A stretch of DNA of 40,149 bases from a virus. Both the position numbers and the translations under genes were made by a program. Below are positions 3,554-31,065 of this stretch, in pieces. The stretch is taken from positions 1 to 40,149 of the IMG/VR virus record IMGVR_UViG_3300009320_000394. One strand, given 5' to 3'. The notes under the pieces are model-generated. The model saw only the letters and a program-made list of their open reading frames with translations. It made no database searches and was not told the origin of the DNA. How positions within the stretch are numbered: position 1 is the first letter of the stretch; each line of letters begins with the position of its first letter.

Positions 3554-4386
3554 TCACTCTTCTGGTGCCCCATCTCCCCCACCCATACGGCTCTTGCCAA
3601 GAAGGAACAACTTGTGGCCTTCTGATAGCTTGGTAAGATCAACGCCGATGTCCATATCCTCCCCTGCCAAGCCCGACATCAGTGAGGAGAAGGCGTGCTT
3701 GGAGTCCTTGCCCCCGAACGCGCTGGCAATAGCCATACGGAGAAGCACCAACTGCATCTGCCTATCACGCCCGATGGACTCCCGTCCCATGACCCACATA
3801 TAGATGGCTTGAGGTAGGGTCATACGATGGAGCACATAGGGTGGCTTAAAGTGGAAGGGTGGGCCTGCCAAGTCTGCTAGGATTCTGTCGTAGGTGTTTC
3901 CCCAGCGGACTCCACTGTCGTCTGCAAGAAGTCGGCCAAAACCGCTCGGACTCCCCTGCTCATCGCCCCCGAGAGGGGTTCCAGCAAGTTTTTTGCTAAA
4001 CTCCTCAGCAGCGTCAGGCCGTTGACCTCCAACACGAGGTTGAACACCCACTCCAGCTGTAGCAGAGGTGCAGCCCTGAAGTCGTCTTCGGTCAGCTCAG
4101 GGATGGCAATCTTGAGAGGAGCAAAACCCGCTTGAACGATACGATGCTTGATGTTGGCGAAGTCAAGCATGGGTTGCTGCTCTGTGGGTTCTGTCTCTTC
4201 TGTCTCGGTTTCCCCTCCAGCCGTCAGCCAATCGCCGCCAACCAAGTCTCGGATGTACTCCTCAAGCGCCATGATCTCGGCCACAGAACGCGCTTCAACG
4301 AGATAGGTGCCGTTCCCGACCTCCACCTCGTAGACGTTCCCGGCCCACACCTTCCTGATGGGCTTTTTGGTGGGCTTTCGAGCCAT
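3554..4386 (-). CDS. Tail assembly chaperone, -1 frameshift fusion (gpGT-like)
   Basis: Extended product made when ribosomes slip at 3994-3988. The first 133 codons are shared with the short chaperone. Reading then continues in the -1 frame for 144 more residues to the stop at 3554, giving about 277 residues. The extension has no good start of its own: its open frame merely overlaps the upstream gene by 175 bases. In lambda, G and GT chaperones bind the tape measure protein and recruit tail tube subunits, and the fusion is made in a small fraction of translations. Order here (tube, chaperone, fusion, tape measure) is the conserved one. The C-terminal part contains a Trp/Tyr-rich patch, PFHFKPPYVLHRMTLPQAIYM. 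Confidence 0.85.
3877..4386 (-). CDS. Tail assembly chaperone, unshifted product (gpG-like)
   Basis: A 169-residue protein starting at an ATG preceded by a strong AAAGGAGG site. The N-terminus is basic (MARKPTKKPIRKVW), the middle is acidic (GGETETEETEPTEQQ) and the C-terminal half is helical with LLQLEWVFNLVLEVNGL. It ends at a TAG. The gene lies 38 bases after the tail tube gene and just before the tape measure gene. Identification relies on this position and on the perfect slippery site near its end, since these chaperones diverge too fast for motif recognition. Confidence 0.85.
   Translation of the reverse strand: MARKPTKKPIRKVWAGNVYEVEVGNGTYLVEARSVAEIMALEEYIRDLVGGDWLTAGGETETEETEPTEQQPMLDFANIKHRIVQAGFAPLKIAIPELTEDDFRAAPLLQLEWVFNLVLEVNGLTLLRSLAKNLLEPLSGAMSRGVRAVLADFLQTTVESAGETPTTES
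3988..3994 (-). promoter_or_regulatory. A_AAA_AAC ribosomal slippery site
   Basis: On the minus strand the zero frame of the chaperone reads GCA AAA AAC, so the heptamer A AAA AAC sits in the exact register for a -1 slip. Slipped reading continues KKLAGTPLGG into the overlapping frame. A few bases downstream is a CCCC-TCTC-GGGG hairpin that could stimulate slippage. The overlap between the two frames extends from 3877 to 4051. Confidence 0.88.
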
Positions 4387-9754: not shown

Positions 9755-10819
9755 CTACGCAGCGAGAACCGTCGCTTCCAGGATCTTGTGTTGATTATTT
9801 TGCATATCCGGGAAGGCATACAGTCCTGCTCCGACCTCGGTGACCCAAGGGTCCTGTCGCCGCTCGGTCCATGCGAACTTGCCTGTGTTCCAGTCGTTCG
9901 GTTCAGCGGGCGCAGTCCACATATTGCCCAGCGGTTCCGCTGGCAGCAGGAGAATCCTGCGGTCATTCAGGAACCTATTGAGCGTCCGCGTGGTCGTCCC
10001 AGCAGCCTCAGTGCGTGTGGAGTACTCAGCCCCATAGACGATGACCTCATTGATGCCGATCATTGATAGGGCACCGCTCGCCATCGGATAGCCGACGGCT
10101 GGGGGCGTGACCCCCGTGGGCGTCTGTGCAGCCCAGAGCTGACGCATCTCTTCTGCCGTGGACAGATAGCGCATCACCTTGCTTGACGTGATCATCACGC
10201 TGGGTCGGGTGTTGGACTGGTCCTCTACCTCCTGGAGCCAGCCGACCAAATCCTGCACGGGCGTCGGGCTGGACTCATCCCAGTGGGTTGACAGCGTCTT
10301 GCGGTTGTCTCCGATGAAAGTGCCAGGATACGTCACGCTGATCTGTACGTTCCCAGCGGTCCCCACGGAGCTGTAGGTGATGCTGCCCAGCATGGCGTTG
10401 ATGCACATCCACTCAACACGGGCGTCAATGGACTGCGAAAGCTGCTCCACCTTCTGCATGATGCGAGCCTGTGCCTCGTCTGCCATCTGGCTCATCAAAC
10501 TGCCACCAGTGGAGTACAGGCGTGCCTCCGTGAAGATGCGTAGATCACGCTCCGTAAAGCGTGCCTTGTAGCGCATATAGGCGATTGCGCCCTTGAGTAT
10601 CCCCCAGATGTCGGCGGGGATCAGGGGCGTCTCGCTGTCGATGCTCACGAAGGGAGCGAGCGGGTTCTCATCCAAGCGGATATAGGTCAGAAACTCATCA
10701 GAGGCACTGTCCCGCCAAGGGAACCAGCGCAAACCGATGTAGCTCGTGTCAATATCGGCGCTTCGGATGATGCCGGTGAGGACGGCGTCCTGCATAAAAG
10801 CTGGAAGTTGTTGACTCAT
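9755..10819 (-). CDS. Major capsid protein (lambda gpE family)
   Basis: A 354-residue protein with a strong GGAGGTGAGGAG site. It follows the lambda gpE-like layout: an N-terminal arm, a region around TPLIPADIWGILKGAIAYMRYKA read in parts, the spine-helix segment MADEAQARIMQKVEQLSQSIDA, then the E-family signature region ARVEWMCINAMLGSITY. The C-terminal axial domain holds RTLNRFLNDRRILLLP and ends near VGAGLYAFPDMQN. It assembles the capsid shell. It is preceded by the decoration-like gene and the protease/scaffold gene, as in lambda (C/Nu3-D-E). The gap after it contains a weak GC-rich hairpin (9687-9717) without a U tract. Confidence 0.9.
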   Translation of the reverse strand: MSQQLPAFMQDAVLTGIIRSADIDTSYIGLRWFPWRDSASDEFLTYIRLDENPLAPFVSIDSETPLIPADIWGILKGAIAYMRYKARFTERDLRIFTEARLYSTGGSLMSQMADEAQARIMQKVEQLSQSIDARVEWMCINAMLGSITYSSVGTAGNVQISVTYPGTFIGDNRKTLSTHWDESSPTPVQDLVGWLQEVEDQSNTRPSVMITSSKVMRYLSTAEEMRQLWAAQTPTGVTPPAVGYPMASGALSMIGINEVIVYGAEYSTRTEAAGTTTRTLNRFLNDRRILLLPAEPLGNMWTAPAEPNDWNTGKFAWTERRQDPWVTEVGAGLYAFPDMQNNQHKILEATVLAA

Positions 10820-10833
10820 TATCTCCTCACCTC

Positions 10834-11241
10834 CTACAGAGTGTCCCGGGCGACAAAGTGAACCGTGGACAACACAGTCTTCGTGGCTGCCAGCACCGTT
10901 CCGAACACTCCGTTATCGGTGCAGTAGTTCTCGTTCACCCAACCCTCCAGCACGATGGTGCTCACAGGATCTTCGTCGTCGGCGCACACCCAGTGCAGGA
11001 GCACACCGATGGTCCCAAAGCCGTAGCTGGTGTAGTTGGGGACAGCCTGTCCGTTGGCCGGGTTCATCGCCAGGACCTGCCCCTCCTGCAAGATTTTGTG
11101 GTCGTACCCATCAAGCAGCGTAGTTTCGGTTATGTAGTCACCGTCAACGGTGTACGAACCGAGAACTGCACCCTCGATGCGGGACAGCAAAATATCGCGG
11201 TGGGTCTCGTAGGTTGAGGACGCAGGTGTGTAAAACGGCAT
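10834..11241 (-). CDS. Head decoration protein (lambda gpD-like)
   Basis: A 135-residue protein with a GTAGGAGGTAAAC site before ATG 11241. It is beta-rich with a Pro/Thr-rich N-terminal arm (MPFYTPASSTYETHRDILL), a QEGQVLAMNPANGQ loop typical of gpD-like decoration proteins, and LHWVCADDEDPVSTIVLEG. Position between the protease/scaffold gene and the gpE-like capsid gene matches lambda gpD, which trimerises on the expanded shell and stabilises it. The call combines context with motif pattern. Confidence 0.75.
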   Translation of the reverse strand: MPFYTPASSTYETHRDILLSRIEGAVLGSYTVDGDYITETTLLDGYDHKILQEGQVLAMNPANGQAVPNYTSYGFGTIGVLLHWVCADDEDPVSTIVLEGWVNENYCTDNGVFGTVLAATKTVLSTVHFVARDTL

Positions 11242-11266
11242 GTTTACCTCCTACCTCAACAGTTGA

Positions 11267-12682
11267 TTACAATTCGGCGGTGTCGTTGGAACGACCCATA
11301 TATGAAGCGAGACGCTTTAGCTCACTCTTGGCGAACTTCTCCGCTTCGTCGGTTGTCATCTCCTTCTCCTCCCCAGCACCCATCGGCTCGCCAGCAGATA
11401 TGAAGGTGCGCTCGCCCAGTGTGCTTGGAATCGCGTCCAGCAATCGGGCCAGCGCGGAGAAGTAGTTGAACTTGCGATCCTCATCACCGACGCTCAGGGT
11501 GATGGTCGGCTCAGCTTCCTCGGAGCAGGCCAGAAGGATGGGTTTGGCCACCCGAAGAGTTGCTGGCGGAACACCGCGACGCTGCGCCTTGGTGATGATC
11601 TCGTCCACTCGTGTCTCATGCCTCTCCTCGCGCAGCTTTCTGTTCGTGGCCATCACCTGCAGTATGTCCTCTGCCCTGAAGGTGATCAGTTGTCCATCCT
11701 GCGCCTGAAGCTGAATCTCGCTTGGAGGAGCGGGTGGGACTGGCTCGGCCTCTGGTTCTGGCGTGGCCTGCTCCACCACCTCTTCCTCCAGGGTCGTTTC
11801 CAAAGTCTTCTCTTGATCTTTCTCCATGTGTTCTTGCCCTCCTGATACCATGTGAATGACTGTCTGCGGGGAGGATAGAAGCACCACCGTCGCCTCCCCC
11901 TCTGCCATCTCAGCCTCTACCTCCTCTGTCACCTCGTCGGACAGAATCGTGATGGCACCCTGTCGTGTGATGAAAGGACGATTCGTGGCCGCAGCACCCA
12001 AGAGCGTGGGGCCATACTCGTGCCCCGTCTCCGCATCCTCGTAGTCAGGGTCATACTCTGCCGAGGCGTAGCGGAGGCTGTTGGGCACTACCTCAAGGCC
12101 CTTCTCAGTCGGGTTGGCGTAGACGATGAGATTCTCATCCTCCACAACCACATCCGTGAACCAGCCCAATGCACCCCAGTCGGGTTGGTGACGGGCATCG
12201 AGTGCCAAGTCATGGCCCACCGCATTCTGGTCAAAGTTGGTGATGAGCGAGGCGAAGAAGCCATCGTCAAACTCCATCTTGCCATACCAAGGATGCTTCC
12301 AGGTGCCCTTCCTCATAAGCGGGATGCGGAAGATGGGATCTCCATCGCGTTCCTCCAGATGGATGTGCCCCACAAGGTAGCTCTGCTTCTTCGTCTCGTG
12401 CCTCTCGGGAGCCTTGACTTCCGATTTCTCTAGGCCCCAGAGCGGAGGCTGTATTCCAGTCGTGGTAGTGTTCTCAACTAGGCCATTTGACACAGTCATC
12501 TCTCCCATATTCACCTCCTGCTTCTTCGGCTTCTTGATGCCCTTGGCATCGCGCCACTCGTCATAGCACATCGCCGCAGCCTGCTTGTTGTCATCGGTCG
12601 TGCCCTCATCCATGACGAACTTGATGCAGCGGGAGATGTAATCCTGTTCCTTTTCGCGCTTCTTCGGCTTTGGCAGTGGCAT
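11267..12682 (-). CDS. Prohead protease/scaffold protein (Mu I-like)
   Basis: A 471-residue protein. Residues 1-45 (MPLPKPKKREKEQDYISRC to CYDEWRDAKG) are a small helical module also seen alone or fused in other phage head proteins. Residues about 100-250 match the phage Mu I-protein type: GTWKHPWYGKMEFDDGFF, LALDARHQPDWGALGW, then TLLGAAATNRPFI. The remainder is acidic, Glu-rich and coiled (TLEEEVVEQATPEPEAEPV), as expected of a scaffold removed during maturation. A second, very strong ribosome site (AGGAGGTGAAT) precedes Met59 at 12508, so a shorter product lacking the N-terminal module is likely. The gene starts 26 bases after a strong intrinsic terminator. Confidence 0.8.
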   Translation of the reverse strand: MPLPKPKKREKEQDYISRCIKFVMDEGTTDDNKQAAAMCYDEWRDAKGIKKPKKQEVNMGEMTVSNGLVENTTTTGIQPPLWGLEKSEVKAPERHETKKQSYLVGHIHLEERDGDPIFRIPLMRKGTWKHPWYGKMEFDDGFFASLITNFDQNAVGHDLALDARHQPDWGALGWFTDVVVEDENLIVYANPTEKGLEVVPNSLRYASAEYDPDYEDAETGHEYGPTLLGAAATNRPFITRQGAITILSDEVTEEVEAEMAEGEATVVLLSSPQTVIHMVSGGQEHMEKDQEKTLETTLEEEVVEQATPEPEAEPVPPAPPSEIQLQAQDGQLITFRAEDILQVMATNRKLREERHETRVDEIITKAQRRGVPPATLRVAKPILLACSEEAEPTITLSVGDEDRKFNYFSALARLLDAIPSTLGERTFISAGEPMGAGEEKEMTTDEAEKFAKSELKRLASYMGRSNDTAEL

Positions 12683-12801: not shown

Positions 12802-12978
12802 CTATTGAGTTTTGCGGCTCAGGTTCTCTTCCTTCGCACTGCCCTGGACTGTCAGAAAGAGCTTCCCGTGCCCCTTCCGCAGAAGCAGCGTATGTACCCC
12901 CCTGCTAAGGTTGCGGATTCTGAGCAAGAGTTTCTTCTCGGCCTGCGATACGGGAAACTCGTTCCTTGCAGCGTTCAT
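12802..12978 (-). CDS. Small basic ORF between two terminators (58 residues)
   Basis: Starts at ATG 12978 (MNAARNEFPVSQAEKKLLLRI) and continues with RNLSRGVHTLLLRKGHGKLFL to a basic end. The pattern of a short helix followed by two strands resembles small DUF2292/YezD-like proteins, as far as memory allows. No convincing ribosome site is seen. The frame is open further upstream into the terminator, which is less likely to be translated. Its location between T1 and T2 means it would be expressed only by read-through or from a local promoter. It could be a regulator of that read-through, but this is speculation. Confidence 0.45.
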   Translation of the reverse strand: MNAARNEFPVSQAEKKLLLRIRNLSRGVHTLLLRKGHGKLFLTVQGSAKEENLSRKTQ

Positions 12979-13015: not shown

Positions 13016-13063
13016 AGCAAAAAAGAAAAGCCCAGAGATGTGCCGTCAAGCGGCTCTCTGGGC
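13016..13063 (-). terminator. Intrinsic terminator T1
   Basis: Minus-strand hairpin with a 9-bp perfect lower stem (GCCCAGAGA/TCTCTGGGC), a 4-bp upper stem (GCCG/CGGC) with a CTTGA loop and a three-base bulge, followed by TTTTCTTTTTT. It is one of the strongest intrinsic terminators readable in the window. It lies about 166 bases beyond the predicted start of the transcript from the perfect promoter at 13236-13264. Confidence 0.92.
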
Positions 13064-13229
13064 GTCACGCGCCTCTTCCTCGGCCCGACCCCTTCAGGGG
13101 TTCTGTGGTTAGGGGCGTTGGTTTGGATATTCAGTTACCGACAGGAGAACAGGAAGTCGCGGGTTCCAATCCCCCTCCCGCTCTCCCTCAGCGTTGAGAG
13201 TAGTACTAGCGTGGACGGTATGATAAGCC
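13016..13229 (-). ncRNA. Candidate 0.21-kb leader/small RNA between perfect promoter and T1
   Basis: Predicted RNA from about 13229 to the U tract of T1, roughly 214 nt. No plausible coding frame with a ribosome site is seen on this strand. It can form a GCGGG/CCCGC helix near 13159-13181, an ACCCC-TGAA-GGGGT tetraloop hairpin at about 13088-13101, and then the T1 hairpin. A TATCAT hexamer lies at about +4 to +9, where a -10-like element can cause early sigma-dependent pausing. Size and layout recall lambda 6S RNA made from pR'. Existence of the RNA is inferred from promoter and terminator only. Confidence 0.5.
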
Positions 13230-13235
13230 AACTAC

Positions 13236-13264
13236 ATTATAGCACAGCGCGGATGTTATGTCAA
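13236..13264 (-). promoter_or_regulatory. Perfect sigma70 consensus promoter
   Basis: Minus strand: TTGACA at 13264-13259, a spacer of exactly 17 bases, then TATAAT at 13241-13236. Both hexamers match the consensus at every position. The -35 box overlaps the stop codon of the 13261-13485 gene. Predicted transcription starts near 13229 and runs toward T1 and the head genes. Confidence 0.85.
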
Positions 13265-13485
13265 CTATCAATTTTGGGGGCAGTCTCCCATGTCTCAGCC
13301 AGGGCCAATATCTCCTCGGGTGATGCGCCCTCTGGAATCTCCTTGAAGAAATCCTCAAACCTCTCTCCAAAACGGGTTCGTAGGAAGCCCATAGACAGCC
13401 TCACAGGCTGTAAGGATACACGACGGCGGAAATCAGGATCAGTCTCCATCAGATTGAGTATCTCTTGTCTGTCGTCAGCAGACAT
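13261..13485 (-). CDS. Small charged protein of unknown function (74 residues)
   Basis: Begins MSADDRQEILNLMETDPDFR after an AGGGGGTGATG region and ends at a TGA embedded in the perfect promoter's -35 box. It is highly charged and helical, with FLRTRFGERFEDFFKEIPEG and SPEEILALAETWE, and has no membrane segment or metal site. It is the last gene before the regulatory cassette and may have its own extended -10 promoter. A small regulator is possible, but nothing in the sequence proves it. Confidence 0.7.
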   Translation of the reverse strand: MSADDRQEILNLMETDPDFRRRVSLQPVRLSMGFLRTRFGERFEDFFKEIPEGASPEEILALAETWETAPKIDS

Positions 13486-13595: not shown

Positions 13596-13784
13596 CTATG
13601 AGTCATTATACCACCAATCCCAGAAGTCGCAAATCTTGTTGTCCAGCCACCACCGCGCCCGCTTCCACAGGCTTGGCCGCGGCTCCTCCCCCATCTCCTG
13701 CAGCTCCCGAATCGCATCCTTCGCCCCGACATTCGCAGCGTGAAGGATGATGCGGATGAGAGTGTCACGGGTTGGTTCGGTCAT
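13596..13784 (-). CDS. Small Trp-rich basic/helical protein (62 residues)
   Basis: Start chosen at ATG 13784, which overlaps the stop of the zinc-ribbon gene as ATGA; the longer open frame has no support. The sequence opens MTEPTRDTLIRIILHAANVG, which resembles the start of the tape measure protein (MADREILIQIILKAAKEG), and ends with a Trp-rich amphipathic segment, LWKRARWWLDNKICDFWDWW. Such an end could bind membrane or protein partners. The function is unknown. Confidence 0.65.
   Translation of the reverse strand: MTEPTRDTLIRIILHAANVGAKDAIRELQEMGEEPRPSLWKRARWWLDNKICDFWDWWYNDS
13605..13632 (-). promoter_or_regulatory. Extended -10 promoter candidate
   Basis: Minus strand: TATAAT at 13610-13605 directly preceded by TGG (TGn extended -10), with TTGCGA, four of six matches to the -35 consensus, 16 bases upstream at 13632-13627. 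It sits in the end of the 13596-13784 gene and would transcribe the 13261-13485 gene. Confidence 0.4.
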
Positions 13785-14029
13785 GGTTGTACTCCACTCG
13801 GCATCTCCACACTCACCTTGCCGTTCGTCTGCGTGTTCCACGCTTTCACCCAGCCGCACTTCGGGCAGATGACCGTCACACGACCCTCATTCATCTCCAC
13901 TATGACACGGAGCGCACTGTACTTGATGCGTAATACGTTCTCCTCATCAAATCCCCCGAGCTTGTGGCCACAATGGCACTTCCATTCGCGCGGCTCGGGT
14001 GTCGTCTTCTTAGCTTTCTTCTTGCTCAT
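13781..14029 (-). CDS. Zinc-ribbon protein (82 residues)
   Basis: Start at ATG 14029, an ATGA overlap with the double glycosyltransferase gene. A lysine-rich N-terminus (MSKKKAKKTTPEP) precedes two zinc knuckles, CHCGHKL and CPKCGW, separated by about 37 residues including an NEGRVTVIC strand. This is a two-knuckle zinc ribbon of the general kind found in phage Com-like or nucleic-acid-binding proteins. It could act on RNA or DNA. The target is unknown. Confidence 0.75.
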   Translation of the reverse strand: MSKKKAKKTTPEPREWKCHCGHKLGGFDEENVLRIKYSALRVIVEMNEGRVTVICPKCGWVKAWNTQTNGKVSVEMPSGVQP

Positions 14030-16344
14030 CGGTTCACCAACCTTTGACAAAGATCAACAATCCGCTTTTGCAGCACTGTCCACGACCACATCTGCACCCG
14101 GTCATAGCAGCGCCTCGCAACATCTTGGCGCAACTCCACATCCTGCTTCAGCTTCAGAATCGCCTGTGCCACCGTCGCCGGGGCTACTTGACATAATAGC
14201 CCTGCGGTGTGCCAAGTGTCCCAGTGGGCCACCGGAAGGTAGATTGGTGCATCGCCCCAAATCTCCTCGCGCACGCCGTTGTCCTTGGGGCAGATGAGCG
14301 GAACCCCACAAGCACTTGATTCCATAGCTGGGAGTCCGAATCCCTCTGCCTGACTCACATCGCAGAACACATCCATCAGATTGTATCTCTGCACCATATT
14401 CAGGCTCACCATATTGTACGCCCTGGCTTCCTCAATGCTCTGCGTCTCGGGCACATCAATCTCAATCGGCTTGTCGTAGGGAATCCCCCGCACTTGCTGC
14501 GCTAGGTCTGGTGGGAAGAATACCTTGCTGCCCAGACCTCGATAGTCCACCATCTGTCTCAGGGGATAGGCCCCAAGCTGATTCTGTTCATCGGGATTGG
14601 TGTGTAAGTACAAGACAATGTCCTCATGCCCCTCTCGCACCAGTATCTCCAGCGCATCCAAGAGCGTAGGCAACGACTTCACGCGCTTATTACGAGCTAC
14701 AAAACCTGCGACAAACTTATCCCCCCACCCAACCGCATACCTCATCTTGGCCCTCGTCTCGTTGTCCAAGGGCTTGAAATCGGCGTGCTCAATGCCGTGC
14801 GGGGCGACCTCAACCTTGCACTTGAACTGACTCATGATGGCCTTGGCTCCCCACTGGGTGTAGGTGATGGGCACTCCTCCCTTGAGCCAAGTTGCCTTCG
14901 CCATCTCCCCGTATGCGTTCATCAGGGGAAGCGATTCCACCGGGAAGTAGACGATCAGCGGCGATTCCCACTGCAATTCCTCCAGCGTGCGCAGGAACTC
15001 GTAGCAGTTGCCCGGGTCATAGTTCATGTAGAGCACATCAGGCTTCTCAACCCGCAGGAACTCCCCTAGCAGGTTCAGCCCCGACTGGTTGCACCATGAG
15101 CACCCCCTCCAGATGGTCACAGGGTCGTTCCTGTAGCGGCGGGGATTGGGGTCGTAGTCGTACATGCCGAGGCAGGCCACCTGAAAACCCTCTTGGCACA
15201 GGCCGTCCACGACCATTCTGGTCACCACCCCGAAGCCTGTTGTGATCCGTGGACTGTCGGATAGCACACCAACCTTGATCTCCTCAATCGGCTTCTTTCG
15301 CGGGAATATCTTCGCCTTGCCCACATTCGGCGGGATGAGCACTGGCGCTTCCGTGACTTCCAAGAGGGGCCGCGTCATGGCCTCCAGGCTGAAATCCAAC
15401 GCCCTTTCCTGCATCATGGTGCGCAGGATCTTCGCCTTTTCGGGATTCTCAATCAGTTCCAGCGTGTTCTGAACCAAGTCGTCAGGCTCATCCCAAGTCA
15501 GGCAACCGATTTCAGTGATCCCGCCCGAGTTATGGACAATAGGGATCGCTCCCGCAGCCATAGCCTCCACGGCGACTATTCCGAAATGCTCTTTTCCACT
15601 TGGTGCGGTGCTTTTGTAGCCTGCCCCATGCCAATAGTAACTCGCATGGCCCAGAAGCTCCCTCAGTTCCTGCCTGTCAATGTCATGGTGGAAATGCACC
15701 CGCCAGTCAGCCTCAGCCTTGACCTTGTCCAAGTACTTCGTGTGCTGGATGGAGCCCACTAGGTGCAGCTCCCACTCATCCGGATCAGGCAGATAGTCAG
15801 TGAGGCGCTTGAAGGCCCGAATGAGCCACAGGTGGTTCTTGTTGTTCCCCCCGGGCACATCAAAGAAGCGGCCAATGCTGACGATGCTCTTCGTCTTCTC
15901 CAGCGGCTTGAGATCCTCAGTGTGGACTGCTGGATATACGACTTCCGCGTCCCTGCCCCAGTAGCGCTTGATCCACTTGGCGCAGAAGTCGCTGATGGTG
16001 ACGATGCTATCGTACCCCGACACATCCCAGTCGGGGTGCTGGGGGAAGAGCACGAAGAGGATATTGCGTCGGGCGTGGGGCGGCAGGATCGTGGAGTGCG
16101 AGATATTCAGCTGCATATCGTACTGCTGCCAGTTGAAGTTGTCAGGGATCGCTCGCCAGTTCAGGTCTGAGATGTCAAGGCCATACTCGTCTGCGCCGTA
16201 GAAAGCAGGGAAGTCCGCCGTGGTGAAGACCTCAAGATCGTAGTACTTGTCCAGAATGTGTAGCAGGGCGAAGGTGTACGCCTCTCCGCCGCCGTAGCCA
16301 CCTTGTGCGCCTGTATGACTTGCAAAAGCCGCGATGGTGCTCAT
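14026..16344 (-). CDS. Double GT4 glycosyltransferase fusion
   Basis: A 772-residue protein containing two complete GT-B folds. Domain one spans residues 1-330, with its donor-binding E-x7-E motif at Glu252/Glu260 (EHFGIVAVE) and an N-terminal GGYGGGEAY loop. A short linker is followed by domain two, about 353-772, with KVGVLSDSPRITTGFG at its start and E-x7-E at Glu667/Glu675 (EGFGLPAME). Family GT4 enzymes are retaining and use nucleotide-sugar donors. Two linked domains could add two sugars in sequence. The gene overlaps both neighbours by four bases. Confidence 0.9.
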   Translation of the reverse strand: MSTIAAFASHTGAQGGYGGGEAYTFALLHILDKYYDLEVFTTADFPAFYGADEYGLDISDLNWRAIPDNFNWQQYDMQLNISHSTILPPHARRNILFVLFPQHPDWDVSGYDSIVTISDFCAKWIKRYWGRDAEVVYPAVHTEDLKPLEKTKSIVSIGRFFDVPGGNNKNHLWLIRAFKRLTDYLPDPDEWELHLVGSIQHTKYLDKVKAEADWRVHFHHDIDRQELRELLGHASYYWHGAGYKSTAPSGKEHFGIVAVEAMAAGAIPIVHNSGGITEIGCLTWDEPDDLVQNTLELIENPEKAKILRTMMQERALDFSLEAMTRPLLEVTEAPVLIPPNVGKAKIFPRKKPIEEIKVGVLSDSPRITTGFGVVTRMVVDGLCQEGFQVACLGMYDYDPNPRRYRNDPVTIWRGCSWCNQSGLNLLGEFLRVEKPDVLYMNYDPGNCYEFLRTLEELQWESPLIVYFPVESLPLMNAYGEMAKATWLKGGVPITYTQWGAKAIMSQFKCKVEVAPHGIEHADFKPLDNETRAKMRYAVGWGDKFVAGFVARNKRVKSLPTLLDALEILVREGHEDIVLYLHTNPDEQNQLGAYPLRQMVDYRGLGSKVFFPPDLAQQVRGIPYDKPIEIDVPETQSIEEARAYNMVSLNMVQRYNLMDVFCDVSQAEGFGLPAMESSACGVPLICPKDNGVREEIWGDAPIYLPVAHWDTWHTAGLLCQVAPATVAQAILKLKQDVELRQDVARRCYDRVQMWSWTVLQKRIVDLCQRLVNR

Positions 16345-17027
16345 ACTACCTCCGGCACATCCTTGATGACATACTTCCGCTCCGTCAGATCGCCCTTCTT
16401 GTCAAAGCCACTTCCGGGGATGGTCATGTAGAGCGCCTCCCTCTCCTCCCGCCTTGATCTGTGCAACCATCCGAAATGCTTCATGTTCACGTGCCAGTTC
16501 CAGATATTCTGTTCTGGGATGTCGGCCAACTCGCCATCCTTCCTCAGCGTCACATGCTCGTGAACCTGACCCACCCATTGTAGGCCGTCAATGTTCCGAA
16601 AGATGCGCGGCCACGTCTCCCACCCACCGCAGTCAGCAGCGTAGTGCTCTGTATCGGGATACAGGTTCATCTGCCTGACCCTGACAGCCAGACAGGTCTC
16701 AGGCAGGGAGGCCAACACCCTGCGGATGCCCCGACGCACATCTCGGCTTGCCATCTCGTCACAGTCCACCCTCATGATCCAGTCCCCGGTGGCGTGCTCA
16801 AAGGAGATTTGGCGCTGGTTGCCGAAATGGTCTTGCCATTCAACTATTCCGTACTTGACCCGATTCTGGGCATGGCTCTTAGCCCACTCCTCAATGATGC
16901 TTCCTGTGTTATCAAGTGAGCCACCGTCAATTATCACCACCTCGTCGGCGTAGGGCCGAATTGAGTCAAGAGCTTGTTCAATATAGCGCTCCTCGTCCAA
17001 AGCGATGAGGCAAACACTAATTCTCAA
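16341..17027 (-). CDS. Family 2 glycosyltransferase (GT-A)
   Basis: A 228-residue protein with the GT2 start MRISVCLIALDEERYIEQAL, the nucleotide-binding segment VVIIDGGSLDNT, and the metal-binding DCD in IMRVDCDE at about residues 86-93. FGNQRQISFEHATGDW is typical of the KdtX/WaaE-like branch that acts on lipid-linked or lipopolysaccharide-type glycans. QWVGQVHEHV supplies the conserved acceptor-side motif. No membrane anchor is seen, so it is probably cytoplasmic. Its end overlaps the double GT4 gene as ATGA. Confidence 0.9.
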   Translation of the reverse strand: MRISVCLIALDEERYIEQALDSIRPYADEVVIIDGGSLDNTGSIIEEWAKSHAQNRVKYGIVEWQDHFGNQRQISFEHATGDWIMRVDCDEMASRDVRRGIRRVLASLPETCLAVRVRQMNLYPDTEHYAADCGGWETWPRIFRNIDGLQWVGQVHEHVTLRKDGELADIPEQNIWNWHVNMKHFGWLHRSRREEREALYMTIPGSGFDKKGDLTERKYVIKDVPEVV

Positions 17028-17040
17028 AGTAGACCCCCCT

Positions 17041-17259
17041 TTATCCTAACCAGTCTATCTCGGGACCCTCAAGAAGCAGTGCCTTGCCGTCAAAGTCAGG
17101 GACTCTCGCTTCAACCAATCGCCCTGTTCTCTGAGATGGATATCCATCAGGTCCACCATAGTAAGAAACTCGGACATAAATTGCCAAGTCGCCGTATTTC
17201 TCAACGTGGCTCCGAAGTATGGGAAGCAAGTCGTTTATGGTAATTGCGTCAAGGCTCAT
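17041..17259 (-). CDS. Small conserved-looking phage protein (72 residues)
   Basis: Starts within the end of the preceding GT4 gene and ends 13 bases before the next. The sequence SLDAITINDLLPILRSHVEKYGDLAIYVRV has the look of a small alpha/beta phage family in which a helix (DLLPLLR) is followed by a GDLPVYV strand and a KALLLEGPE strand near the end. The function is unknown. Its conserved type and tight packing support it as real. Confidence 0.7.
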   Translation of the reverse strand: MSLDAITINDLLPILRSHVEKYGDLAIYVRVSYYGGPDGYPSQRTGRLVEARVPDFDGKALLLEGPEIDWLG

Positions 17260-18259
17260 TGAAATAGATCTCCCTCAGCCGTTCTCCCACGGACCTAGCT
17301 GAAAACCGCTTCAGCGCATCCTTCCGCGCCTTCTCGCTGTACGCCCTCCAGACACTAGGATTGAGCAGCAACCCCCCTATCCCCTGATGCAGCAGATTCC
17401 ACATCCTAGCCGGAACGAGCCACCCCGTCTGGCCATGAATCACAATCTCTCCCGGCCCGCCGCAGGAGGTGCTCACCACTGGTGTCCCGCTGGCCAGCGC
17501 CTCGATGAACACCTGCCCGAACTGCTCCAGCCACTCCCCGAAGGGGTCACGACTGCCCAGCGGATACGAGGGACATGAGAATATCTTGGCCCTTCTCATT
17601 CTCTCCGCCATCTCCGTGCGCGTCAGAAACCCCAGCCACTCAATGTTCACCCCTGACCTGAAGGCCCACATATTGTAGAAATCGCGGTCATCCTCAGAAA
17701 CCTCTCCAGCGACCCAGAGAGCGGCTGAGATGCCCTTCATGGCCCATATCAGGTCTTTCAGCCCCTTCTCTGGCACAACGCGGCCACAGAAGAACACGGC
17801 ATCCTCTCGTCGCTCCAGGGGCAGCGGCTGGAACTCCTCGGTGTCCACTGCGGCCGGAACCACCGCTATCTTCTCCTCGGGCACGCCATCCCAGACCAGT
17901 GCATCGTGGATCATGCGTGTCCGGGCGACGAACTTCCAAGCGTGTTTCATTACACCCTTGCTGTATGTGTCGTGGTTCTTGCCCAGCAAGTTGTCCCAAG
18001 CAGAGATGACCACATAGGCGTGCCGCTTGACAAAGTACTGCGCCCACTCGTAATGCGGATCAGCCACATCAATCACATCAGGGTTGATCTCTTCCAGCAC
18101 CTGCCAAGGCTGGCTGTAGACGAAGGGGATGACGTTCGGAACATTGACAGGCTTTGTGCCACAGGCGTAGACCTCAATGTCGTCGTTGGCGATGCTGGAG
18201 AATGTGGTTATGTCCCATTCGTTTATCCTGTCGTGCCGCACAATCGCTAAACGCAGCAT
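17249..18259 (-). CDS. GT4 glycosyltransferase
   Basis: A 336-residue GT-B enzyme with GGGAGGTGGT before the ATG. The N-terminal acceptor domain starts MLRLAIVRHDRINEWD. The C-terminal donor domain carries AVFFCGRVVPEKGLKDLI (residues about 154-171) and the E-x7-E motif at Glu245/Glu253 (EQFGQVFIEALASGTPVV), followed by GGPGEIV and GWLVP. It transfers a sugar from a nucleotide donor. There is no signal or membrane segment. It lies directly after the orotate phosphoribosyltransferase gene. Confidence 0.92.
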   Translation of the reverse strand: MLRLAIVRHDRINEWDITTFSSIANDDIEVYACGTKPVNVPNVIPFVYSQPWQVLEEINPDVIDVADPHYEWAQYFVKRHAYVVISAWDNLLGKNHDTYSKGVMKHAWKFVARTRMIHDALVWDGVPEEKIAVVPAAVDTEEFQPLPLERREDAVFFCGRVVPEKGLKDLIWAMKGISAALWVAGEVSEDDRDFYNMWAFRSGVNIEWLGFLTRTEMAERMRRAKIFSCPSYPLGSRDPFGEWLEQFGQVFIEALASGTPVVSTSCGGPGEIVIHGQTGWLVPARMWNLLHQGIGGLLLNPSVWRAYSEKARKDALKRFSARSVGERLREIYFNEP

Positions 18260-18299
18260 ACCACCTCCCTCATTGAGTCACGGCCCAGTGATGGCGAGT

Positions 18300-18878
18300 T
18301 CAGCCCGCAACGCTCTGTTCGTCATTATCCACCCCCAGATCGTGCTTGGTAAAGACGGCAGCATAGTCATAACCGGCTTCTGTGATAGCCTCCAACCCGC
18401 CTTCAAGCCTATCCACCAGCGCCACTACCATCACTACTTGACATCCCTGATCTTCGGCAGCTCTCACAGCTTTGAGAAGCGAACTGCCCGTTGTGACAAC
18501 ATCATCCACAATCGCCACTCGCAGCCCGTCTTCATTGGGCAGTGGCCCTTCGATCAGCTGGCCGTCACCGTGACGCTTTGGTCCTTCTTTTCTCACAAGG
18601 AAAGCCGGTATGGGCCTTCCCTCATCGTAGCTCTGTCGCGCCACGGCAGTCACTATAGGATCGGCTCCCATAGTGGGTCCACCAATGGTTTGTACTTCTG
18701 CACCCTCCAGCAAGTCAAGAACTACCTTGCCTACGAGTTTTATGCCTTCAGGATCTAGGGTTACCATCTTGGCATTGATGTAGTAGCTGCTCTGAGTGCC
18801 AGAAGCTAGCTCATAAGTCCCATGCTTCAGTGCTCTTGTTCTCAACAGATCAAGAAGCCTACTTCTGGCAGTGCTCAT
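18300..18878 (-). CDS. pyrE: Orotate phosphoribosyltransferase
   Basis: A 192-residue protein of full family length. It converts orotate and PRPP to orotidine 5'-phosphate in UMP synthesis. Visible signatures are ASGTQSSYYINAK (residues 25-37), the catalytic-loop segment FLVRKEGPKRHG (93-104), and the PRPP-binding loop VAIVDDVVTTGSS (121-133). All key residues of the family appear present. The ATG overlaps the upstream gene as ATGA. Within a sugar-building island its likely benefit is to raise UMP and hence UTP, the precursor of UDP-sugars; that link is inference. A pyrimidine enzyme is uncommon in phages. Confidence 0.93.
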   Translation of the reverse strand: MSTARSRLLDLLRTRALKHGTYELASGTQSSYYINAKMVTLDPEGIKLVGKVVLDLLEGAEVQTIGGPTMGADPIVTAVARQSYDEGRPIPAFLVRKEGPKRHGDGQLIEGPLPNEDGLRVAIVDDVVTTGSSLLKAVRAAEDQGCQVVMVVALVDRLEGGLEAITEAGYDYAAVFTKHDLGVDNDEQSVAG

Positions 18879-19129
18879 GTGTTCTTCTCCTCTGGTTCAT
18901 ATGGCAGGGTGCCGCGCCGTTCCCTGATTCCGTAGATTATTCCGCAGGCTTCCTCCCGTGTAAGAACAGCGTCACATGCTGGACATTGGAAACTGTCACA
19001 GGGCATCCGTGTGGCTTCAATGCGTAGGCCATTCTCTCGGCAGACATGAGCTGCAGTAAGAAGAAGCGAACCAAGCCAACTCAACCACCATCCTGGGTAG
19101 TCCAGCGCTCCTGACTCACCGTAAATCAT
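18875..19129 (-). CDS. Small Cys-containing protein of unknown function (84 residues)
   Basis: Begins inside the last codons of the GT2 gene at ATG 19129 and ends as an ATGA junction with the orotate phosphoribosyltransferase gene. A hydrophobic N-terminal part (WWLSWLGSLLLTAAHVC) is followed by CDSFQCPACDAVLTREEAC, which could hold a zinc ion. The acidic tail is PEEKNT. No family is recognised. Confidence 0.7.
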   Translation of the reverse strand: MIYGESGALDYPGWWLSWLGSLLLTAAHVCRENGLRIEATRMPCDSFQCPACDAVLTREEACGIIYGIRERRGTLPYEPEEKNT

Positions 19130-19799
19130 GTTCCTCCCTCATCGCCATTGCCGCCTCTGTCAAATGATAAACGACCGCGGGGCTGAAAGCGCACATAAAG
19201 CCGAGCTTCCAAGCTCGGAAGACATATTGTCTATCGCTCTTGTCGTACTGCTCACCTGGTGGCCCGGGGGGAAAATCGCCCAAGGCGAAGTAGCAGTCCT
19301 TCCGTAGCATCATCAGTGCGCCCGTGACCCAAGGTACTAACCGCTCACCCCAGTAAATGCAATTCGGCTCATGGTCCCCATAGTGATAGCCACCACCGTA
19401 GGCCCCAGCGTGAGCGATGAGACCGCTCCCCAACAGCAGCTTGCATCCCACAATCGCTGCCCCTGTCCTCGTCGCTGTTGACAGCATCGTCTCCAGCCAG
19501 TGAGGGGTCACTATCGTGTCCGAGTTCAGCAGCAGATACCACTCTGGGTTGACATGCTCCCTCAGCCACCTCAGTCCTTCGTTCACTGCCCTCGTGAACC
19601 TGATGTTCGGCGTGAAGACCAAGTTCAACCAGCCTTCTTGGGCAAGTGATAGCAGCCACTCGGCTGTGCCATCCTTGCTCCCATCGTCCACGACGCACAG
19701 GGAGAAAAGGTGATGCGGTGTGTGCATAAACAGGGAGTCAAGGCAGCGTTCTAGGAAAAACCGATCTTGAAATGAGGGAACCACTAGGCCCACATGCAC
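19116..19799 (-). CDS. Family 2 glycosyltransferase
   Basis: A 227-residue GT-A enzyme starting at GTG 19799, which overlaps the previous TAG (TAGTG). The GT2 features are MHVGLVVPSFQDRFFLERCL, LCVVDDGSKDGTAEWL for the nucleotide, LLLNSDTIVTPHWLE with a modified DXD (NSD), and WVTGALMMLRKD on the acceptor side. It resembles rhamnosyl- or glycosyltransferases of O-antigen and S-layer glycan clusters. It follows directly after the small transmembrane gene of the lysis cassette. Confidence 0.92.
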   Translation of the reverse strand: MHVGLVVPSFQDRFFLERCLDSLFMHTPHHLFSLCVVDDGSKDGTAEWLLSLAQEGWLNLVFTPNIRFTRAVNEGLRWLREHVNPEWYLLLNSDTIVTPHWLETMLSTATRTGAAIVGCKLLLGSGLIAHAGAYGGGYHYGDHEPNCIYWGERLVPWVTGALMMLRKDCYFALGDFPPGPPGEQYDKSDRQYVFRAWKLGFMCAFSPAVVYHLTEAAMAMREEHDLR

Positions 19800-19906
19800 T
19801 ACCGTTTCCTCCTCACAGCGAATGCCAAAGCGATCATCAGACTAGCCCCAAGCACCAGTCCCAGCAAGATGCCTGTCCAGTTAGGAATTGGGCAGTAGAT
19901 TGTCAT
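19799..19906 (-). CDS. Very small single-pass membrane protein (35 residues)
   Basis: Starts at ATG 19906 (MTIYCPIPNWTGILLGLVLG) after AGGGGGTGAAGAAG. One strong transmembrane helix (ILLGLVLGASLMIALAFAV) is followed by RRKR and TAG. The longer open frame upstream lacks a good start. It is placed after the 46-residue two-helix protein and the cell-wall hydrolase, so a holin-accessory or spanin-like role is possible. That role is inferred from position and topology only. Confidence 0.6.
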   Translation of the reverse strand: MTIYCPIPNWTGILLGLVLGASLMIALAFAVRRKR

Positions 19907-19931
19907 CTTCTTCACCCCCTCTTCAGCGGTA

Positions 19932-20072
19932 TCAGCCCACCTTATCTGCCAACCAGATGAGCAAGATGATAGCAATGACGATAGGCAGCACAGCTGCGCT
20001 TCTCGCCCCTCGTCGGCCAGCGACCAGATAGGCAAACAGAACGAATAGGACAAAGCCTATGAGACACGTCAC
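19932..20072 (-). CDS. Two-helix small membrane protein, holin candidate (46 residues)
   Basis: A gene shorter than usual gene-finding limits. It starts at GTG 20072, with AAAAGGAGGATGAGAAT giving an ideal ribosome site. It reads MTCLIGFVLFVLFAYLVAG, a basic turn (RRGARS), then AAVLPIVIAIILLIWLADKV. Two hydrophobic helices with a short charged loop and a start just after the cell-wall hydrolase fit a small holin that lets the lysin cross the membrane. No sequence family is recognised, so the holin role is a positional inference. Confidence 0.65.
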   Translation of the reverse strand: MTCLIGFVLFVLFAYLVAGRRGARSAAVLPIVIAIILLIWLADKVG

Positions 20073-20102
20073 ATTCTCATCCTCCTTTTCAACTGCCTCA
20101 TC

Positions 20103-20555
20103 TTATTCCAGTACCACAGCCTCAGAAGGAGTGACAAGATCCAAAGTACAGAGAACGATAGTGCCACCGCCGCTGGGGGAATCAGCCATTCGTTCACCAG
20201 GAAACTCCTTGTAGAGATGCAGCCGAAATATCGGGCCAGAGCCATAGATCATGTCCCCTTCGGGGAATCCAAGCCATTCCCTATCCTGCTCCGAGAAGGC
20301 GTATAGCATACCACCTGTAGGGTCTCTCTGGCGCCTGAGTATGAGCCTAGCCAAGACTCTGTGATGGTCTGTTGGCTCGCCCCACCCGTTCCACTGTCTA
20401 GGCTGAAACAAGACCTCCATGACGGTGTCAGGGGAATAGGGACTGCTTACCCGATTCATAATCGCGTGACCGATGGCTAACATTGCATCGTCGCCCAAGA
20501 CGCCCGCCTCGCCAACCAAGACAGCAGCCAAGAGGGTAATTATGTCAGGAGACAA
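20103..20555 (-). CDS. SleB-type cell-wall hydrolase (endolysin candidate)
   Basis: A 150-residue protein of the Hydrolase_2/SleB type. The core is LLAAVLVGEAGVLGDDAMLAI read in parts, with catalytic Glu16 in VGEAG, then HAIMNRV (residues 29-35) and VMEVLFQPRQWNGWG, the family's conserved tail. The enzyme cleaves the glycan strands of peptidoglycan. The start appears to be TTG 20555, since a stop lies just upstream in frame; the weak start may limit expression. There is no signal peptide, so it would depend on a holin, and two tiny membrane genes follow. Active site and fold match the family, although the C-terminal 60 residues are not recognisable. Confidence 0.8.
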   Translation of the reverse strand: MSPDIITLLAAVLVGEAGVLGDDAMLAIGHAIMNRVSSPYSPDTVMEVLFQPRQWNGWGEPTDHHRVLARLILRRQRDPTGGMLYAFSEQDREWLGFPEGDMIYGSGPIFRLHLYKEFPGERMADSPSGGGTIVLCTLDLVTPSEAVVLE

Positions 20556-20591
20556 TGCTAATCACGACCCTATGCGTAGTCCTGGTTGTTG

Positions 20592-20993
20592 CTAGCATAC
20601 AATCTCCTTGATCCAAGCGATGAGTGTGCATTCACTCGCACGCCATAGCCAAGACTCCTCAAATCCTCTGTCGCCATTCACATATCGCTTGCGAGCAAAA
20701 GTGCCACTTAGCTTGACAAGCCCAAGCCGTTGTGCGACATAATAGCCGACATACTTCGCATAACCGAGATCACTGTAAGCTGTGTAGAAACCGTTGCCCC
20801 AAAGGTTTCTTATTTCGCCCTCAATCCAGGATGGACCTGAGCCATGCCTTCCCAGCCCATCAAAGAACATTATTGCAAAGACATGAGCTGGTGGCGGCGA
20901 CTCTGAATTGAGCCACTCTTCTTCGTCCTCATCTGTCTCAATCAGAACTTGGCGACCATACACACCTATCTCTGGCGGCAACTCCTTGAGCAT
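20592..20993 (-). CDS. Protein of unknown function (133 residues)
   Basis: Starts at ATG 20993, seven bases after the GT4 stop. It has an acidic stretch (ETDEDEEEWLNSESPPP), an aromatic Gly-rich centre (GNGFYTAYSDLGYAKYVGYY) and Trp-rich C-terminal helices (SWLWRASECTLIAWI). No signal peptide, zinc site or enzyme motif is recognised. It sits between a glycosyltransferase gene and the cell-wall hydrolase gene. Confidence 0.7.
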   Translation of the reverse strand: MLKELPPEIGVYGRQVLIETDEDEEEWLNSESPPPAHVFAIMFFDGLGRHGSGPSWIEGEIRNLWGNGFYTAYSDLGYAKYVGYYVAQRLGLVKLSGTFARKRYVNGDRGFEESWLWRASECTLIAWIKEIVC

Positions 20994-20999
20994 CAGTCC

Positions 21000-22022
21000 C
21001 TATGCCTCCCACACCTCGCCCGTTGAAACGCGCCAGTAGAGTGCTAAGTAGTCTTCGGCCATGTACTTGGAGTGAAACGCATGTGCTCTGACCCTGCACC
21101 CCTCACGGCTGATGTCGCCAACCTGCTCCACATAACTCGCCAAGTCAGCTATCGCCGCCGGGCTGCTCTTCGGAACCAAGAACCCATGCTTGCCATCTTC
21201 CACTAACTCACAGAGAACACCGCTCTCCGTACCCAGAAGCGGAACACCACAGGCCAGCGCCTCGGTCACCACAATGCCTCCCGGCTCCAGCCATCTCAGC
21301 GGATAGAGGAAGGCATAGGCATTCCTGAGCAAATCCATCTTCTCCTGCCCTCCGACCTCCCCCACGAACTCAATGCCCAACTTTTGGCATATCGGCTCGG
21401 CCAGCATGGGCTTTACGACCTGATCCCAGTACTCACTATCCCAGGGCACCCCCGCGATCTTCAGGGGCCGCTTGGACAGCTTGGCGATGTTGATCGCATG
21501 ATCCACTCCCTTGACACGGGTGCAGGCTCCCATGAAAAGCAGATAGTCGTCTGGGTCAGCTTGGAACTCGTAGTCCTCCGTGGGCACACCATTGTAGACA
21601 AAGGGCACATAGTCCCGTAGTTTCATGTGCTCCCTCTGGGCTGCAGAGATGCAGACTTCGTTGACAGTGATGCCCATGCGCGAGTGCACTTGGTGCGTGG
21701 CGATGCAGGGCACATCGTCCCTCAGATGAGCGCGGGCGAACCACTTGTCGTGGGTGATGTCGTGGAAGCAGTCCACCTGGCCTATGAGTTCGTCGGCCAT
21801 GACTGCCTGCAACTGGTCAGACTCATGTAGGTTGTCAAAGTTGGGGTCAAGGGTGAGGACGGTGGCTCCCTTGACATAGCTGTCGGTTTGGGCAATGAGG
21901 GTGACTTGGTGGCCGAGCTTCAGAAGTTCCTGGGAAAGCCACCCAACCATGCGTTCAATTCCTCCATATCGTTGGGGAAAAACCGTAATGCCATTTACAG
22001 GTGCTAGGATGCAGATGTGCAT
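21000..22022 (-). CDS. GT4 glycosyltransferase
   Basis: A 340-residue GT-B enzyme. The N-terminus MHICILAPVNGITVFPQRYG followed by GGIERMVGWLSQEL is the classical GT4 start for UDP- or GDP-sugar enzymes. The donor half has YLLFMGACTRVKGVDHAI (160-177) and E-x7-E at Glu246/Glu254 (EPGGIVVTEALACGVPLL). The start overlaps the preceding stop (TAATG) with GGAGGAA upstream. It probably builds an oligosaccharide with its GT neighbours. Confidence 0.93.
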   Translation of the reverse strand: MHICILAPVNGITVFPQRYGGIERMVGWLSQELLKLGHQVTLIAQTDSYVKGATVLTLDPNFDNLHESDQLQAVMADELIGQVDCFHDITHDKWFARAHLRDDVPCIATHQVHSRMGITVNEVCISAAQREHMKLRDYVPFVYNGVPTEDYEFQADPDDYLLFMGACTRVKGVDHAINIAKLSKRPLKIAGVPWDSEYWDQVVKPMLAEPICQKLGIEFVGEVGGQEKMDLLRNAYAFLYPLRWLEPGGIVVTEALACGVPLLGTESGVLCELVEDGKHGFLVPKSSPAAIADLASYVEQVGDISREGCRVRAHAFHSKYMAEDYLALYWRVSTGEVWEA

Positions 22023-22258
22023 TATTCCTCCTTTGGATCGGTAAACCTAACAAGTGATGGCGAACCTCCTGTGTCAAGGAACTGCTTGAACAGGTCTGGG
22101 GCTATCAGAATGGGCAATGTCACCTCGTAGGATGTCGGAGCTTCCTTGGCGACTCTTTTCCCACAGTAGGTGCATTTCCAAAAATCGGCTCCGAGTCTCT
22201 CATCTTCGTAGAGTTTGTAGTGCGTCATCTTGGCTAGGCAAATCGGGCAAAACATCAC
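22022..22258 (-). CDS. Zinc-ribbon protein (78 residues)
   Basis: Starts ATG ATG at 22258 after a strong AAAAGGAGGAGTG site. Two knuckles, CPICL and CTYCGKR, about 25 residues apart form a probable zinc ribbon. The C-terminal half (EVTLPILIAPDLFKQFLDTGG) is a separate alpha/beta segment. It overlaps the sulfotransferase reading frame by 59 bases, unusually long for this operon. The function is unknown. Confidence 0.7.
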   Translation of the reverse strand: MMFCPICLAKMTHYKLYEDERLGADFWKCTYCGKRVAKEAPTSYEVTLPILIAPDLFKQFLDTGGSPSLVRFTDPKEE

Positions 22259-22772
22259 TCCTCCTTTTATCCAACATCGTCTGATTCCACCTGAACTGCC
22301 TCCGCTGCTCCTTCGGTATCCAGAGCGGGTGCGATGATAGCCCCTCGTAGTTCACCATGAAAGCGTGCTTGATGCGTTCCCTTTGATGCTTGACCCAGTA
22401 TTGGTACTTGAGAACCGAAATCGGCACATTGACACCGTGTGCTTGGTATTTGTCCCGTTCTGTGACATCGCTCCAGCTAATGCGTTGCTCCGAGGCTATG
22501 ATGTCCTCTACCGCTCGGATCATCATAACGATGGCTGTCTCTTCAGAGGAAAACTGTTGAATACAGTGACACATGCCTGGGCATTGAATGACTAGCCGCT
22601 GGTTTGTCCCCAAGAACATGAAGAACCGCTTTTCATACTCAACGCCGAAGTCCTCCTCGTCAATGTACCGGTGGCCCACATCATGGGAAATGATCTTGGC
22701 ACAGATGCGGGTGCCAGAACGCTGAGGTCCGCTGACCAGAATCTTTGAGAACGGCGCCAGAAACTCAAACAT
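22200..22772 (-). CDS. Sulfotransferase-like P-loop protein
   Basis: A 190-residue protein starting at ATG 22772, an eight-base overlap with the preceding gene. The PAPS-binding P-loop is KILVSGPQRSGTRICAKII (residues 10-28). AIVMMIRAVEDIIASEQR matches the 3'-phosphate-binding segment where Arg and Ser follow a strand. FMVNYEGLSSHPLW is the later conserved strand. Sulfotransferases move sulfate from PAPS to hydroxyls or amines of sugars and proteins. Full enzymes are often longer, so this is a minimal form. The last 30 codons run through the next gene's ribosome site and start, which may mean the true end is earlier. Confidence 0.75.
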   Translation of the reverse strand: MFEFLAPFSKILVSGPQRSGTRICAKIISHDVGHRYIDEEDFGVEYEKRFFMFLGTNQRLVIQCPGMCHCIQQFSSEETAIVMMIRAVEDIIASEQRISWSDVTERDKYQAHGVNVPISVLKYQYWVKHQRERIKHAFMVNYEGLSSHPLWIPKEQRRQFRWNQTMLDKRRSDVLPDLPSQDDALQTLRR

Positions 22773-23004
22773 TCGGATGAAACACCAAACCATTGTAAGC
22801 CAAGACATTCAGCCATGCAGATCGTCCCACCTGCTGCCCGTCCCACACTTCGTGAAGAGTCTCATCGGCAATCATTATGCCACAGCCACAACAACGGTTC
22901 TGGCTGGGCACATCGCCAAGTGTAGCTGGAACACAGCGATGCACATACAAGAGAGGATCATACTCCCATCGGTGGAGAATCGTGTCCGTGTACTCCTCAC
23001 CCAT
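22765..23004 (-). CDS. Small Cys-containing protein of unknown function (79 residues)
   Basis: Starts at ATG 23004 (MGEEYTDTILHRWEYDPLLY) with an eight-base overlap and ends within the start of the sulfotransferase gene. The centre holds NRCCGCGIMIADETLHEVWDG, in which the Cys cluster might bind metal with His residues nearby. The tight overlap on both sides suggests a genuine coupled gene. No recognised family. Confidence 0.6.
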   Translation of the reverse strand: MGEEYTDTILHRWEYDPLLYVHRCVPATLGDVPSQNRCCGCGIMIADETLHEVWDGQQVGRSAWLNVLAYNGLVFHPNV

Positions 23005-23647
23005 GCGAATGCACCCTGAACAACTGATTGTCCCACAGATGCCCTGGAATCGTTGCGCACTCTATGCCGAGCTTCCACAGGGCATAGTTGAGGCTCAGTT
23101 GGTCGCGGCAACTGTGCTGCTGTAATTCTTGCCACCACAGTTCAGACAGTTCCCTGATCTGAGGCGTGTCGCGCCGCACCAGCACCCCACCGACGAACAG
23201 CCCCCTGCTCTCGGGATAGCCCTCTGACCTGTACTTGTCCACCTGTGTCTGAATCACGCTCGGCTCATCGGCAAGGCATTCAATGCACTTCGCTGCCTCA
23301 TCGTACACACACTCTCTCTGAGGATGACGAAAGGCAGCGATGTCGCAGTCGCCCAAGAAGTCCAAGAATTGCTCGGGTGGAACGAGGAGTTCCACATTGC
23401 CGTCGTGGTAGAGAGTGAACTCTGGCAGGGTGAGCTTGACCTCAGCAAAGTACCGCAGTGGCAGTATTTTGCCAAGGCGACTACGCCTATGAGGACCGAT
23501 CATAAAGGTCGTAAGTAATTGGAGATCCCATATCAGTGTCCAGCCCTCTACCACTTCAATGCCATCGCTGATGCAGAAGCCGGACCACTTCGTTGGACGC
23601 AGAGTGTCATACCCCCCAAAGATGACCGTGTAGCGGACAAAGTTCAT
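22997..23647 (-). CDS. DUF616/TOD1-MUCI70-like glycosyltransferase
   Basis: A 216-residue protein starting at ATG 23647, an ATGA overlap with the small membrane gene. It contains YTVIFGGYDTLRPT, a PH-R motif in IGPHRRSRLGKILP, the FRHPQRECVYDEAAKC block and HSCRDQLSLNYALWKLG. That order (HP-R-YDEA, then YRSEGYP, then RDQLS) is the signature of the DUF616 family, whose plant members TOD1 and MUCI70 are glycosyltransferases. The enzyme is presumed GT-A-like and cytoplasmic here. Confidence 0.8.
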   Translation of the reverse strand: MNFVRYTVIFGGYDTLRPTKWSGFCISDGIEVVEGWTLIWDLQLLTTFMIGPHRRSRLGKILPLRYFAEVKLTLPEFTLYHDGNVELLVPPEQFLDFLGDCDIAAFRHPQRECVYDEAAKCIECLADEPSVIQTQVDKYRSEGYPESRGLFVGGVLVRRDTPQIRELSELWWQELQQHSCRDQLSLNYALWKLGIECATIPGHLWDNQLFRVHSHG

Positions 23648-23874
23648 CTCACCTCCTCGGGTAGAGTAATGACCCACAGGCAGAGGAGCCAGATGACAAT
23701 CCACGCAACGCCAGCTGTAATGGTCCACGCAATAACTGCAGACCGAGGCTTTCTATAAGCAACCGCAACCCCCGCGCCCGTCAGGAATCCAATTGCCATT
23801 GGGCCGTAGATGACCCTAGCTGCTGTCCTGTCAATTGGATGCACTATGATGTGCCAGAAACGGCCCCTCCTCAT
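23644..23874 (-). CDS. Small two-helix membrane protein (76 residues)
   Basis: The start at ATG 23874 is favoured by the GAAAGGAGG site just upstream; the open frame extends further without support. A basic N-terminus (MRRGRFWHIIVHPIDRT) is followed by two transmembrane segments, VIYGPMAIGFLTGAGVAVAY and AVIAWTITAGVAWIVIWLLC, and the tail PEEVR. It might anchor glycan enzymes at the membrane. No family is recognised. Confidence 0.7.
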   Translation of the reverse strand: MRRGRFWHIIVHPIDRTAARVIYGPMAIGFLTGAGVAVAYRKPRSAVIAWTITAGVAWIVIWLLCLWVITLPEEVR

Positions 23875-23891
23875 CAAATCCTCCTTTCGGC

Positions 23892-25799: not shown

Positions 25800-25803
25800 C
25801 GCC

Positions 25804-26370: not shown

Positions 26371-26377
26371 CCCTCCC

Positions 26378-28612: not shown

Positions 28613-28616
28613 CGCC

Positions 28617-29714: not shown

Positions 29715-29726
29715 AACATCTCCTTT

Positions 29727-30835: not shown

Positions 30836-30844
30836 GTTTTCCTC

Positions 30845-31042: not shown

Positions 31043-31065
31043 CTAGTCCTCCTATTCTGTGTGTC

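Follow-up and report, generated by a model that had tools for sequence, protein, structure and literature searches.

A promoter and terminator ahead of the virion-head genes in a phage and six relatives, and their possible role as a termination gate

In a 40,149-base virus record from IMG/VR, which was analysed over its whole length and is here called the window, a consensus sigma70-type promoter and a strong terminator precede the virion-head genes on the minus strand. The same order recurs in six out of six relatives, each with a near-consensus promoter and a strong terminator lying 10–36 nt before the equivalent head gene. The conservation of this layout is our principal new finding. The original prediction had described a switch like that of lambda pR', 6S RNA and tR'; its layout is real and conserved, and to that extent the analogy is a good one, but as a statement of mechanism it is unproven. 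We propose that the element acts as a termination gate at the start of the head operon, a reading to which, judging from sequence, we give about an even chance.

The element and its surroundings

On the minus strand, to which all window coordinates refer unless stated otherwise, the order is terminase (37231–35420), portal (34444–32939), about 18 kb with glycosyltransferase and sugar-nucleotide genes (13700–32500), small ORFs, the promoter, a first terminator (T1), a possible 58-aa ORF, a second terminator (T2), a 471-aa gene, the gene of a 135-aa head protein, the major capsid protein gene (10819–9755) and, at the end of the window, the tape measure protein gene. The 471-aa gene (11267–12682) is the first head gene. 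Proteins similar to its product are encoded at the equivalent spot in relatives, and from its location and the protease-like look of some of these relatives we infer a maturation protease or scaffold; in the relative L025, the protein in this place is similar in its C-terminal part and dissimilar in its N-terminal part. Glycosyltransferase genes likewise come after portal in the phage L002. A small protein with zinc-ribbon-like cysteines is encoded at 13784–14050, after a 772-aa glycosyltransferase; similar proteins precede the promoter in L004, L025, L035 and L039, with a weak match to Mu Com in L035 only.

The promoter, TTGACA-17-TATAAT (13236–13264), consists of a -35 element at 13264–13259, a 17-nt spacer and a -10 element at 13241–13236 preceded by an extended TGn. 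As originally predicted, it matches the consensus at 12/12 positions, and it is the sole such match in the window, where 0.0027 are expected under a dinucleotide model. Its -35 element overlaps the stop codon of a 74-aa ORF with coding-like codon use (13261–13485), upstream of which lies a second, weaker promoter with an extended -10 (TTGCGA-16-TATAAT, 13632–13605). Transcription is predicted to start at 13229 or 13228. A -10-like hexamer, TATCAT, is present at 13225–13220 (about +5 to +10), where a pause had been suggested; chance alone would place a hexamer so close to TATAAT in about 1.2% of the 10-start ranges of this genome. This 5/6 match is not kept in the relatives, the best of nine other start regions tested reaching 4/6. 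Among the promoter spacers compared by eye, there is likewise no common element of the kind bound by Q between -35 and -10. Within single phages, some strong promoters do have spacer motifs in common (L026:5304 and L027:3047; L025:9751, L033:9333 and L033:16067), namely TGTAAAGGTTT in G003 and, in G004, AAATTTTCTAT or a sequence close to it, which are possible operators for a phage regulator.

The predicted leader RNA (13019–13229) would be about 200–210 nt long from the promoter's start site to the end of the U-tract. It ends in T1, whose hairpin (13063–13030, U-tract 13029–13019) has the 9-bp and 4-bp stem parts that had been reported, with a folding energy of -21.9 kcal/mol; the sequence directly after the stem is TTTTCTTTTTT. 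T1 is absent from a simple terminator scan and was detected by a fold-based script. The stronger T2, which the original prediction did not include, lies at 12746–12713 (-25.4 kcal/mol, tail TTTTTTCG) and is followed after 30 nt by the ATG of the 471-aa gene. The possible 58-aa ORF between the two (12802–12978) has borderline codon use and no clear ribosome site; its resemblance to a small ORF in L054 is suggestive only, with 46 of 2000 shuffles scoring equally well. Downstream of the capsid gene and upstream of the tape measure gene there are further terminator-like hairpins (9718–9686 and 3580–3541), and neither has a promoter of at least 10/12 nearby.

Several other identities for the leader were considered and rejected. 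An 88-aa GTG ORF translated through T1 has non-coding codon use in its 5' part. For an attenuator, alternative pairing with the 5' arm of the terminator is no better than in shuffled sequences in the window, L035 and L025 leaders. Structured RNAs of Rfam, including bacterial 6S RNA, gave only chance-level covariance-model matches. A T-arm-like GTCGCGGGTTCCAATCCC on the plus strand (about 13157–13174, in the complement of the leader) was negative for tRNA by ARAGORN, RF00005 and Rfam.

Recurrence in relatives and chance expectation

Relatives were gathered with alignments of the terminase, glycosyltransferase, capsid and 135-aa proteins; alignments were needed, as neither the 471-aa protein nor the capsid protein retrieved any viral relative when used as a single query, and a capsid search of plasmids gave no match. 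The comparison set consists of the six phages that cover the site, L002 and L003 being left out because their records end before it. Their capsid proteins are about 41–47% identical to that of the window. Two distant cultured relatives, with capsids about 24% identical, have no such promoter.

In some relatives the promoter-leader-terminator cassette is present two or three times in tandem. In L004 there are three, with promoters at 11999, 12099 (12/12) and 12207, terminators at 12057–12093, 12165–12196 and 12316–12350, and the head gene ATG at 12370. L039 has two (promoters 3861 and 3984, terminators 3934–3959 and about 4041–4073, ATG 4109). In L025, a promoter at 9751 and a hairpin at 9890–9918 are followed by an insert and then by TTGACT-15-TATAAT at 11889, a terminator at 11927–11956 and the ATG at 11985. 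Between the two promoters of L025, with similar hairpins on both flanks, sit a CRISPR-like mini-array (9985–10141; three copies of CGGACCACCCCCACACCTGTGGGGAAAT, 62-nt spacing) and, adjoining it, a 461-aa ORF on the minus strand that matches HTH_OrfB_IS605 (10337–11722). The arrangement is simpler in L035 (promoter 3438, 12/12; terminator 3680–3707; ATG about 3730). In L036, promoters at 296 and 329 (11/12 each) are followed by two small ORFs, a terminator at 919–940 and an ATG at about 956, and in L054 a promoter at 347 (10/12) is followed by a hairpin, a small ORF, a terminator at 648–675 and an ATG at 685. The leader of the window does not align with those of the relatives, including L035, beyond chance. 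Another promoter-terminator pair, TTGACA-17-TATTAT with an immediate hairpin and TATTTTTTT, lies ahead of a small ORF at L029:10356–10416. A 7-kb contig with capsid genes of this phage group, L024, is binned with a Candidatus Altiarchaeales genome, and is probably misbinned.

These phages have 304 genes of at least 100 aa, and in 24 of these a strong terminator ends close to the first start codon. The head gene accounts for four of the 24, which leaves a background of about 7% for the other genes. By comparison, the head gene is preceded by a strong terminator in all seven phages, the window included; the script did not count L025 and L035, where the first in-frame start codon lies farther upstream, and L054 joined the set afterwards. 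Promoters matching at 11/12 or better number 35 in 607 kb of strand, or 0.035 per 600 nt. Since the window was chosen for its promoter-terminator feature, the fair count is that of the six relatives, which by capsid identity form about three lineages: L004/L025/L039 (61–85%), L035/L036 (59%) and L054, whose capsid was compared only with that of the window. By estimate rather than formal test, the joint occurrence of promoter and terminator in three lineages is far more than these rates would yield by chance. Genome-wide, the association of promoters with terminators is modest (9/29 against a 14% background, p 0.013; 5/29 against 3% in a stricter earlier version), and the claim therefore depends on where the element lies, ahead of the head gene.

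A possible gate and its alternatives

If the element is a gate, the host's RNA polymerase, carrying its main sigma factor, would start at the near-consensus or tandem promoters and stop by default at the terminator or terminators, freeing short RNAs of about 200 nt here and about 35–240 nt in most relatives. The same terminators would also end transcripts coming from the upstream glycosyltransferase operon. No strong promoter lies within the 10–36 nt that separate the last terminator from the head gene, and head-gene transcripts must therefore pass a terminator. The head genes would then be expressed only by polymerase that passes the terminators, either because these leak to a limited extent or with the aid of an antitermination factor from phage or host, and a factor would lift the block late in infection. 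The activity of promoter and terminators, the stopping of most transcripts and their late release are predictions; the default short RNA and termination checkpoint of the original prediction are supported to this degree by the layout conserved in six relatives. Counting against a gate are the two small ORFs on the L036 RNA before its terminator, the possible 58-aa ORF between T1 and T2, the two distant cultured relatives that lack such a promoter, and the negative results for a Q-like protein and for a common spacer element; a promoter far away might also supply the head operon instead.

A less likely explanation is that each cassette is a small-RNA gene between two operons. Its RNA would then act in trans, in the case of the shorter RNAs through base-pairing to ribosome-binding sites, and the head operon would be transcribed from elsewhere. 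An anti-Shine-Dalgarno 6-mer occurs in four of nine short leaders against 0.31 expected, in three of them with CAT upstream against 0.12 expected, and the L039 P1 RNA, with an unpaired 5' part and then a hairpin, has a layout typical of small RNAs. A 19-nt stretch of this kind, CTCATTTTAT(T/C)CTCCTTTG, is common to L025 and L039 (capsids 85% identical), whose leaders otherwise differ. However, the motif had already been noticed when it was put to the test, the window and L035 leaders lack it, and small-RNA genes give no account of a terminator that always lies directly before the head gene. A combined form, in which one to three tandem cassettes make up a previously undescribed gate that answers to a non-Q antitermination factor and whose default RNAs are also anti-Shine-Dalgarno regulators in trans, seems to us quite improbable.

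Doubtful, too, is an ordinary operon boundary without a regulated switch, where the terminators end upstream transcripts but let through enough polymerase to serve the head genes, and the only contribution of the promoter is additional transcription. Phages are known to have leaky terminators between genes, and the hairpins at 9718–9686 and 3580–3541 place terminators inside the late operons as well. At a plain boundary, however, the promoter would be expected after the terminator, and it stands before it in 7/7 phages; tandem repeats of the promoter-terminator unit are also hard to explain.

Similarly doubtful is a true Q-type switch, in which a phage Q-like protein would load at the promoter in an early pause and the polymerase then pass the terminators: the layout is that of lambda pR'/tR' and TATCAT lies near +1, but the hexamer is unconserved, the spacers have no common element, and the three Q families (PF06530, PF03589, PF06323; PMC7171158) have no match in the records searched, which are possibly fragments, with the PF06323 control matching nowhere. 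The original prediction had likewise identified no Q-like gene in the window. A T7-type RNA polymerase was rejected on the lack of any PF00940 match, its control too having matched nowhere.

Should the termination gate prove real, this phage group, for which the collection searched contains no close cultured relative, would control capsid production by transcription termination, and an antitermination factor would await discovery. The tandem cassettes at a fixed genomic place offer a clean assay for such a factor, and might lead to a novel family of antiterminators or phage small RNAs.

Comparison with known systems

Phage and prophage small RNAs resemble the relatives' short cassettes in having their own promoter, an unpaired seed and a terminator hairpin, but an unpaired seed is not seen in the leader of the window, and the cassettes lie directly ahead of the head operon. 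The likeness to lambda pR'-6S RNA-tR' with Q, and to phages 21 and 82, consists of a strong sigma70 promoter, a leader of about 0.2 kb, an intrinsic terminator and late genes. Unlike in lambda, no Q homologue, conserved pause hexamer or spacer element common to the promoters was found here; there are two terminators in the window and tandem cassettes in relatives, and the element of the window stands at an internal boundary ahead of the head genes.

In Pseudomonas aeruginosa, AlpA antiterminates alpB and PA0807, and the terminators of its targets begin 26, 54 and 247 bp after the start sites, before the first gene (PMC7969949). The placing of terminators between start site and first gene is the same here, but the putative binding element of AlpA lies between -35 and -10 (PMC7969949), where we see no common element. 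A further likeness is to p7 of phage Xp10, a phage protein which is reported to let host RNA polymerase pass intrinsic terminators (PMC6624301, PMC4513864), as the factor proposed for the termination gate would do.
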